Below the pieces are notes generated by a model. The model searched no databases and had not been told where the DNA came from. It worked only from the letters and a program-made list of their open reading frames with translations. Positions 8,625 through 26,988 of a stretch of 35,582 nucleotides of DNA are shown one piece after another. Positions within the stretch are counted from its first letter, which is position 1; each line of letters opens with the position of its first letter. A program made the translations under genes and the position numbers. The DNA is from Candidatus Poseidoniales archaeon (GTDB taxonomy: Archaea > Thermoplasmatota > Poseidoniia > Poseidoniales > Thalassarchaeaceae): positions 1-35,582 of the forward strand of contig JAPKFG010000005.1 of NCBI GenBank assembly GCA_028821675.1, written 5' to 3'.

Positions 8625-8700
8625 TGGTGGACGCTGGGGGATTTGAACCCCCGGCCTCTTGAGTGCCACTCAAGCGATCTTCCAGCTGATCTAAGCGCCC
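8625..8700 (-). tRNA. tRNA-Ala(GGC), 3' CCA encoded
   Basis: Minus strand GGGCGCTTAGATCAGCTGGAAGATCGCTTGAGTGGCACTCAAGAGGCCGGGGGTTCAAATCCCCCAGCGTCCACCA; cloverleaf folds, anticodon GGC, G3:U70 present. Confidence 0.95.
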
Positions 8701-8779
8701 ATTTACATCCAAGCAGGCTTGATTGCGCCCCGACGACCAGCCCCGCTCATTTAAGCCTCTCCAACCTGTCACGAAGAGC

Positions 8780-9466: not shown

Positions 9467-9495
9467 CTCATCATCTTCGTAGTGACCCGATTTCC

Positions 9496-9517
9496 TCATA
9501 TACGGGGAGTAGGTCGG
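9496..9517 (+). promoter_or_regulatory. promoter-like element TCATATACGGGGAGTAGGTCGG upstream of the eL41-like ORF
   Basis: Nearly identical to 25776-25797 upstream of the uL3 operon; TATA-like core about 25 nt before the ATG at 9526. Confidence 0.65.
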
Positions 9518-9525
9518 CCGGATTG

Positions 9526-9633
9526 ATGAAGCGGGGAAGTCGTGCCTGGAAGAAGGCCGGCAATCAGCGATGGAAGTGGCGTCGCAAGAAACTTCGTCGC
9601 CGCCGAGCTGCCCGCAAGCAGAACAAGCAGTGA
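9526..9633 (+). CDS. rpl41e: ribosomal protein eL41-like peptide
   Basis: 35 aa, below the ORF-track cutoff: MKRGSRAWKKAGNQRWKWRRKKLRRRRAARKQNKQ; C-terminal part resembles the eL41 pattern (KWRxKRxRRLxRKRRK). Confidence 0.65.
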   Translation: MKRGSRAWKKAGNQRWKWRRKKLRRRRAARKQNKQ

Positions 9634-9693
9634 GATGCGCATCGCATCACCGCTCGGTTGAAATATCGTTGCCGTCGGCCGTTGTTTACTCTT

Positions 9694-9766
9694 GGGGGTA
9701 TAGTATAGCCTGGTAGTACTACCGGCTCCAGACCGGTGGAGGGGGGTTCGAATCCCTCTGCCCCCA
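9694..9766 (+). tRNA. tRNA-Trp(CCA), no intron
   Basis: GGGGGTATAGTATAGCCTGGTAGTACTACCGGCTCCAGACCGGTGGAGGGGGGTTCGAATCCCTCTGCCCCCA; anticodon stem ACCGG/CCGGT, anticodon CCA. Confidence 0.94.
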
Positions 9767-9795
9767 CCTCTTCTAGTCGTGTGAGCGTTGGATTC

Positions 9796-25762: not shown

Positions 25763-25775
25763 CCAACCGAGCCGT

Positions 25776-25797
25776 TCATATACGGGAGGTAGGTCGC
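25776..25797 (+). promoter_or_regulatory. promoter-like element TCATATACGGGAGGTAGGTCGC of the ribosomal operon
   Basis: 20 of 22 or nearly so identical to 9496-9517 upstream of eL41; TATA-like core. Confidence 0.65.
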
Positions 25798-25799
25798 AG

Positions 25800-25968
25800 G
25801 GCCGCTCAACACTGAGCGTCCAGACACCACCGGGCAATGCAGCAGTACCCCACAAAACCACAGATTTCACTTGTGAATCTTGGTCAGGTGTCACGGTCGC
25901 TCCTGAAGTGACGAGCCGGAGTACTATCGCTTCGGCGATATTTACTCTGAAAAACTGGAGGAATCCAA
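25800..25968 (+). promoter_or_regulatory. putative structured 5' leader of the uL3 operon
   Basis: About 165 nt with no convincing ORF; TATCGC-TTCG-GCGATA hairpin at 25925-25940 and AGATTTCAC/GTGAATCT inverted repeat. Confidence 0.45.
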
Positions 25969-26988
25969 ATGGCCAATACCACGCATCGCCCAAAGAAGGG
26001 TAGCATGGGCTTTGGCCCGCGAAAGCGAGCCAACAGACCCTTTGGTCGTGTCAAGAGTTGGCCCGATACTGATGCAGACGAAGTTCGAGTTCAGGGTTTC
26101 GCTGGATGGAAAGCAGGAATGACGCACGTATTGATGCGTGATCTCAACCCTGGCAGTCCAAGTGCTGGTTCAGAAGTACGCAAAGCCGTCACCGTTGTCG
26201 AAGTTCCTCCCATGATTGTTCTCGCCGTTCGAGGATACAAGATGACACCGTACGGCAAGCAGACTGCAGGAGAGGTGTGGGCTGACGCTGAGAAACTCAG
26301 CGACGCCCTTCCAAACCTCCCCCGTCGAATGCCTGAGCGCAAGGATCATGATTCCAAGGCTCACCTTGACAAGCTTCGTGAATCCAACTTGTCCGAAGTT
26401 CGTCTCATCGTCGCATCACAACCTGAGAAAATCTCCGCTGTGAGTAGCAAGACTCCTCAGATTATGGAAATGGGCATGACCGGTGGTGACAATGCTGCAC
26501 AGTTGGACTGGGCATCGGAGAAACTTGGTGAAGAGTTGACCATTGAGGATGTTTTCGTCTCTGGTTCAGACATCGATGTCATCGGCGTGACCAAGGGATA
26601 TGGGAATCAGGGTGTTGTTCGCCGATTCGGTGTCAAGTTACTTTCTCACAAGAACTCAAAGCGTCGACGTCAGATTGGTAACATGGGTGACTTCGGTACA
26701 GCATATGTTCGCAAGACCATTCGTCAGGCGGGTCAGACTGGATACCATCAGCGAACGGAATACAACAAGCGAATTCTTCGAATCTCTGGAGAAGAAGAGA
26801 GTCAGATTACACCCGCCGGCGGATTCCTCCACTATGGTGAAATTCATAATCACTACATGATTGTCCAAGGCAGTCTGCCAGGGCCAGCAAAGCGATTGAT
26901 TCGATTCCGTGATGCATCACGTCAACGAAATGAGCAGCATCCAATCGACATTACATACGTCAGCACGGCGTCCAAGCAGGGGGTGTGA
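25969..26988 (+). CDS. rpl3: ribosomal protein uL3
   Basis: 339 aa; RPKKGSMGFGPRKRA, GWKAGMTHV, first gene of the archaeal ribosomal cluster. Confidence 0.97.
   Translation: MANTTHRPKKGSMGFGPRKRANRPFGRVKSWPDTDADEVRVQGFAGWKAGMTHVLMRDLNPGSPSAGSEVRKAVTVVEVPPMIVLAVRGYKMTPYGKQTAGEVWADAEKLSDALPNLPRRMPERKDHDSKAHLDKLRESNLSEVRLIVASQPEKISAVSSKTPQIMEMGMTGGDNAAQLDWASEKLGEELTIEDVFVSGSDIDVIGVTKGYGNQGVVRRFGVKLLSHKNSKRRRQIGNMGDFGTAYVRKTIRQAGQTGYHQRTEYNKRILRISGEEESQITPAGGFLHYGEIHNHYMIVQGSLPGPAKRLIRFRDASRQRNEQHPIDITYVSTASKQGV

Follow-up and report, generated by a model that had tools for sequence, protein, structure and literature searches.

The question raised by this locus is why, within the window (the whole stretch of 35,582 nt analysed here, one contig of a 1.6-Mb MAG that is 91% complete), the small gene of ribosomal protein eL41 and the ribosomal operon headed by uL3 are preceded by almost the same 22 bp. 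An initial annotation had read this as an element of a ribosomal-protein regulon, with a regulator or initiation factor recognizing its part downstream of the TATA-like core. Poseidoniales are uncultured archaea abundant in the surface ocean, and the coordination of ribosome production in archaea is, to our knowledge, poorly understood. The analysis described below indicates that the element is real and is a growth-class core promoter found across the order.

Both copies are present where they had been placed, at 9496-9517 (eL41) and 25776-25797 (uL3), and direct comparison gave 19 identical bases out of 22. The pattern TCATATACGGGNNGTAGGTCG occurs at 9496-9516 and 25776-25796, the sole matches in the window when up to three mismatches are allowed, with none in 100 dinucleotide shuffles of the window at the same tolerance. 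Scanned with a PWM made from order-wide sites, the two copies reached 44.7 and 39.5 bits, and the runner-up only 7.3. The eL41 promoter spans 9488..9516 on the forward strand (CG at 9488-9489, TCATATA at 9496-9502, GGGG at 9504-9507, and GTCG at 9513-9516), and its predicted transcription start falls at 9524..9526 (+), 28-30 nt past the TATA start, a position taken from the TATA peak that leaderless genes show at -28/-29 in a relative (G002, see below). The gene itself (9526..9633, +) codes for a Lys/Arg-rich product of 35 aa identified by eye only, with no match in Pfam, and orthologous ORFs lie behind the same element in L014, L018, L038, and G002; its mRNA is predicted to be essentially leaderless. 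The uL3 operon promoter covers 25768..25796 (+), with CGA at 25768-25770, TCATATA at 25776-25782, GGG at 25784-25786, and GTCG at 25793-25796, and is followed by a predicted mRNA leader of 165 nt (25804..25968, +) and by uL3, first gene of the operon (25969..26988, +; Pfam PF00297, E 2.8e-87), whose closest named relatives are Candidatus Thalassarchaeaceae and other Poseidoniales (Marine Group II) MAGs, with identities up to 94%. Measured from the first T of TCATATA, the ATG is 30 nt away at eL41 (9496 to 9526) and 193 nt away at uL3 (25776 to 25969), close to the approximately 25 and 190 nt first proposed.

Within the MAG as a whole, the 17-base pattern TCATATACGGGNNGTAGGTCG gave eight sites with up to three mismatches and none for the reversed control, while a looser pattern, TCATATANGGGNNGNNGGTCG, gave 30 sites versus nine in the control. 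The 13 sites that need at most two mismatches all stand before a growth gene or 23S rRNA, namely eL41, uL3, uL16, eL15, eL42, uS13, uL11, eS8, 23S rRNA, ndk, FKBP, a Csl4-like gene, and H+-PPase. Sites with three mismatches are found before eS6, eL21, eS19, eL40, uS15, eL18, eL37, eS1, Rpo7, and DnaG, intermixed with likely chance sites. Of the genes after these sites, Pfam supports uL3, uL16, eL15, eL42, uL11, FKBP, ndk, eS8, eS6, eL21, eS19, uS13, uS15, H+-PPase, and a Toprim protein read as DnaG, 23S rRNA was identified by Rfam, and eL41, eL37, eL40, eL18, eS1, Rpo7, and Csl4 were named by eye. In both families, what the uL11 gene behind the element (L007; G002:C1:409586-409868) encodes resembles the C-terminal, RNA-binding half of the protein only.

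The same picture is seen among relatives. Of 116 Poseidoniales genomes, 101 have the pattern with at most one mismatch (reversed control, zero), and among the order-wide loci listed about 28 of 30 lie before uL3, uS13, eS19, eL41, uL16, eS8, Sec61beta, or 23S rRNA. Several small-genome genera of the same family have few or no strict matches. The element was absent from the five genomes scanned of the sister order, and the other classes of the phylum that we scanned gave matches at control level only, which rules out a phylum-wide element. In G002, a single-contig relative from the other family (~2.0 Mb read), the PWM ranked highest uL3, 23S, eS19, uS13, eL41, 16S, eL15, eL21, ndk, eS1, eL18, and Sec61beta, followed by a tier with eL37, uL11, eL40, uS12, and several tRNA genes; eL42, EF-2, and uL16 carry there only a partial element, and tRNA promoters are mixed or intermediate in class features. 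The PWM was kept fixed, iterated refinement having drifted into the flanks and weaker promoters. The 16S (L116:3482-4951) and 23S (L142:1-507) rRNA genes of G002 are unlinked, each with its own copy upstream. Overall, the element precedes many functionally related but unlinked genes, many ribosomal ones among them, and is kept in orthologous promoters of distant relatives from two families, as the initial annotation had anticipated for a regulon. Its restriction to ribosomal proteins did not hold, with 16S and 23S rRNA, some tRNAs, RNA polymerase subunits, ndk, FKBP, and Sec61beta also included. A single, rigidly spaced promoter sequence common to these genes suggests that Poseidoniales may switch their protein-making machinery as a set.

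The architecture of these promoters is best described with columns counted from the TATA start. The consensus, CG-N6-TCATATA-N-GGG-NNG-NN-RGTCG, extends further upstream than had been noticed, with CCGA at -9 to -6 in uL3 promoters. Single-base exceptions aside, TCAWATA...GTCG is kept in all 52 uL3 promoters examined, where conservation starts sharply at -9 and continues through column 20; the conserved leader begins at +28. Ordinary promoters were modeled in 703 upstream regions of G002 by EM seeded with a bare TATA box. They show CG at -8/-7, T-TSAWRA, a weak WSG/TSG at columns 18-20, RR at 24/25, and a pyrimidine at 27, and in leaderless genes the TATA peak lies 28/29 nt before the ATG, from which we infer a start 28 nt past the TATA start in element promoters. 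These ordinary promoters (G002, L073-L172) are themselves unusual in their CG-N6-TSAWRA form with the weak TSG some 10 nt on, and many of the genes are leaderless. On top of this framework, growth-class promoters have a G-tract at 7-10 and a G at 17; their TCG at 18-20 is firm, and column 27 is T. Upstream of TATA, the conserved CG at -8/-7 is accompanied by weaker positions at -5, -4, and -1 and departs from the usual A-rich form. The gap between TATA and GTCG is rigid: 16 pairs in G002 share one gap with zero to four at any other, and among the order-wide matches listed one gap accounts for 44 of 149 and the second most frequent for 16. One spacing dominates, rather than the variable spacing or orientation of a site separable from the core promoter, and this fits a single protein-DNA assembly.

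How far the class stands apart from other promoters was assessed in two ways. The count of class features had a median of 10 in the growth class versus about four in the others, the growth set being partly chosen by motif. Since a set picked by motif is biased, a cross-family design was adopted in which genes picked by motif in the MAG were followed to their G002 orthologues (n=21, two genes resembling chance hits retained). Sites were chosen, equally for test and background, with a masked PWM still containing columns 18-20. Both blocks, defined as at least three G in columns 7-10 plus GTSG at 17-20, were present in 14 of the 21 orthologues and in 12 of 384 other promoters (odds ratio 62, p=3e-14). 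In the other promoters the class features occurred at the expectation for independent columns, save for a slight excess at the top.

We think it probable that this growth-class core promoter of Poseidoniales is read directly by the pre-initiation complex. The 22-bp identity would then be the promoter part from -28 to -8 relative to the start, with TCATATA as a strong TATA box, the G-tract immediately behind it at about -21 to -18 and GTCG at roughly -11 to -8, provided that transcription begins at column 28; the upstream CG would be placed where TFB reads the BRE. TBP, TFB, and RNA polymerase may read the element directly, TFB contacting both flanks of the TATA box and the melting region, and growth genes would thereby be transcribed with similar strength and respond alike to growth conditions, with the structured leader as a putative second layer of control at uL3. 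It is the rigid spacing and the position of the element that make us favor, from sequence, the pre-initiation complex over a free-standing regulator. In Saccharolobus the N-terminal cyclin fold of TFB sits on DNA at -12 to -14 (PMC8448881), a location that would adjoin GTCG at its predicted position.

Other readings have to be weighed against this one. The chance that the two copies are a fortuitous resemblance or a recent duplication of one promoter is practically nil: only two copies exist in the window, as such an origin would have it, and the conservation throughout the order with a control of zero, together with the 52 of 52 uL3 promoters, refutes it. Less easy to dismiss, and yet rather unlikely, is that the element is nothing more than the ordinary promoter in its strongest form, retained by genes of high expression that are not regulated together. 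General promoters do have CG, TSAWRA, TSG, and RR at the same positions, and tRNA promoters and some growth genes are intermediate; however, other promoters show no enrichment of the G-tract and G17, which are specific to the class, and the feature counts form a separate distribution, with the bias toward motif-chosen genes stated above. The interval between TATA box and start is a frequent binding place of archaeal repressors, so that a dedicated DNA-binding regulator sitting there on GGGNNGNNGGTCG, repressing or activating growth genes, has also been considered. The G-tract and G17 would suit it, as they are specific to the class and other promoters do not have them as a block. Against it, the element is rigidly spaced to the TATA box, has no palindrome or repeat within it, ends in a TSG common to ordinary promoters, and no candidate protein was found, and we regard such a regulator as unlikely. 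Because TSG is a weak part of ordinary promoters in the same genomes, the element appears to be no independent regulator site added downstream of the TATA box.

The element could also be what a second, specialized initiation pair recognizes, a divergent TFB2 and/or TBP2, with ribosome genes using general factors of their own. Most of the more complete Poseidoniales genomes surveyed have a canonical and a divergent TFB, the latter a full TFIIB relative (L174:56-1078, -; G002:C1:1571812-1572327, -) that retains both cyclin repeats as well as the zinc ribbon and, in the two genomes examined, is located near eL40. In several genomes, with members of both families among them, there is also a divergent TBP-like protein (170-180 aa) whose gene neighbors one resembling a metal-dependent hydrolase (L173:1219-1761, -; L177:1329-1844, +). 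That paralogous TBPs and TFBs are used in combination by many archaea, with a degree of promoter specificity (PMC7289017), counts in the same direction. On the other side, nothing that we found links TFB2 or TBP2 to the element promoters, sister-order genomes carry two or three TFBs and yet lack the element, TFB number does not track the element across the genomes surveyed, and TBP2 was not detected by Pfam in the MAG or in G002. We consider this pair quite unlikely, and still more doubtful its full version, two parallel initiation systems in which ribosome, rRNA, and some tRNA genes would be read by the specialized TFB2 and/or TBP2 via the element. If true, it would amount to a division of labor recalling the Pol I/III factors of eukaryotes, except that there is just one archaeal polymerase.

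Among known systems, bacterial stable-RNA and ribosomal promoters have GC-rich discriminators near the start. These might be compared with the Poseidoniales element as GC-rich stretches by the start, common to rRNA and ribosomal protein promoters, but they work with another polymerase and other factors, and what we see here is a specific sequence with rigid spacing, so the parallel would be an analogy only. With the canonical archaeal core promoter of BRE, TATA box, and initiator/proximal element (PMC7289017) the Poseidoniales element would share a TATA-like box ~28 nt before the predicted start, a candidate position for TFB contact upstream, a start-site element, and many leaderless genes; it differs in that the upstream element is CG rather than A-rich and in the G-tract and GTCG between TATA and start, whose full form is limited to growth genes. 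The Sulfolobus UV-inducible hexanucleotide linked to TFB3 (PMC5817253) is likewise a short, non-palindromic element at a fixed distance from the core promoter that marks a functional class, but it lies upstream of the BRE at -44 to -39 in UV-response genes, whereas the Poseidoniales element is downstream of TATA in growth genes. Haloarchaea, with multiple TFBs and TBPs and RosR (PMC4287449), also exert global control that includes ribosomal protein genes, although RosR is an oxidant-responsive protein whose site is a 20-bp palindrome, and we found no common core-promoter element described in that work (PMC4287449). The eukaryotic TCT/TOP classes of ribosomal-protein promoters (PMC6954239) are again a core-promoter variant common to translation genes, with the signal at the start site and not upstream of it as in Poseidoniales. 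A full-text literature search found no description of an element such as ours. The signature can be read from sequence alone, would define a growth regulon of Poseidoniales, and predicts start sites, and within the core promoter it is the stretch from TATA to start that sets one class of genes apart from all others.

The work also brought to light a new structured leader RNA before uL3. Its 165 nt fold better than shuffles (z -3.95), and a consensus fold of 37 aligned relatives has 33 pairs, 18 of them with both sides changed at least once. Per-helix figures cover helices 1-4, which are 96-100% paired and include 11 pairs changed on both sides; compensatory changes from GACAC/GTGTC to GTCGC/GCGAC are seen in L241 and L250. 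A search of Rfam at E up to 10 gave no match, and the covarying helices indicate that the leader is probably a conserved structured RNA of Poseidoniales, new in being absent from Rfam. Mimicry of rRNA was rejected, the leader having no words in common with 16S/23S rRNA above chance. As a guess, the invariant 5' CUC might pair with the GAG of a Shine-Dalgarno-like GGAGG, an arrangement that would suit translational feedback.

Two tRNA genes of the window deserve a mention. A tRNA-Trp gene (9694..9768, +) closely follows eL41, ~60 nt past it, within 9526-9768, and the order is the same in G002, where the tRNA gene was not found to have a promoter of its own; an mRNA-tRNA cotranscript is possible. 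A weak class-like site, with 7.3 bits only in the PWM scan, lies at 8734..8754 (-) upstream of tRNA-Ala GGC (8625-8700, -), and the tRNA-Ala of G002 likewise has a weak class-like site upstream.
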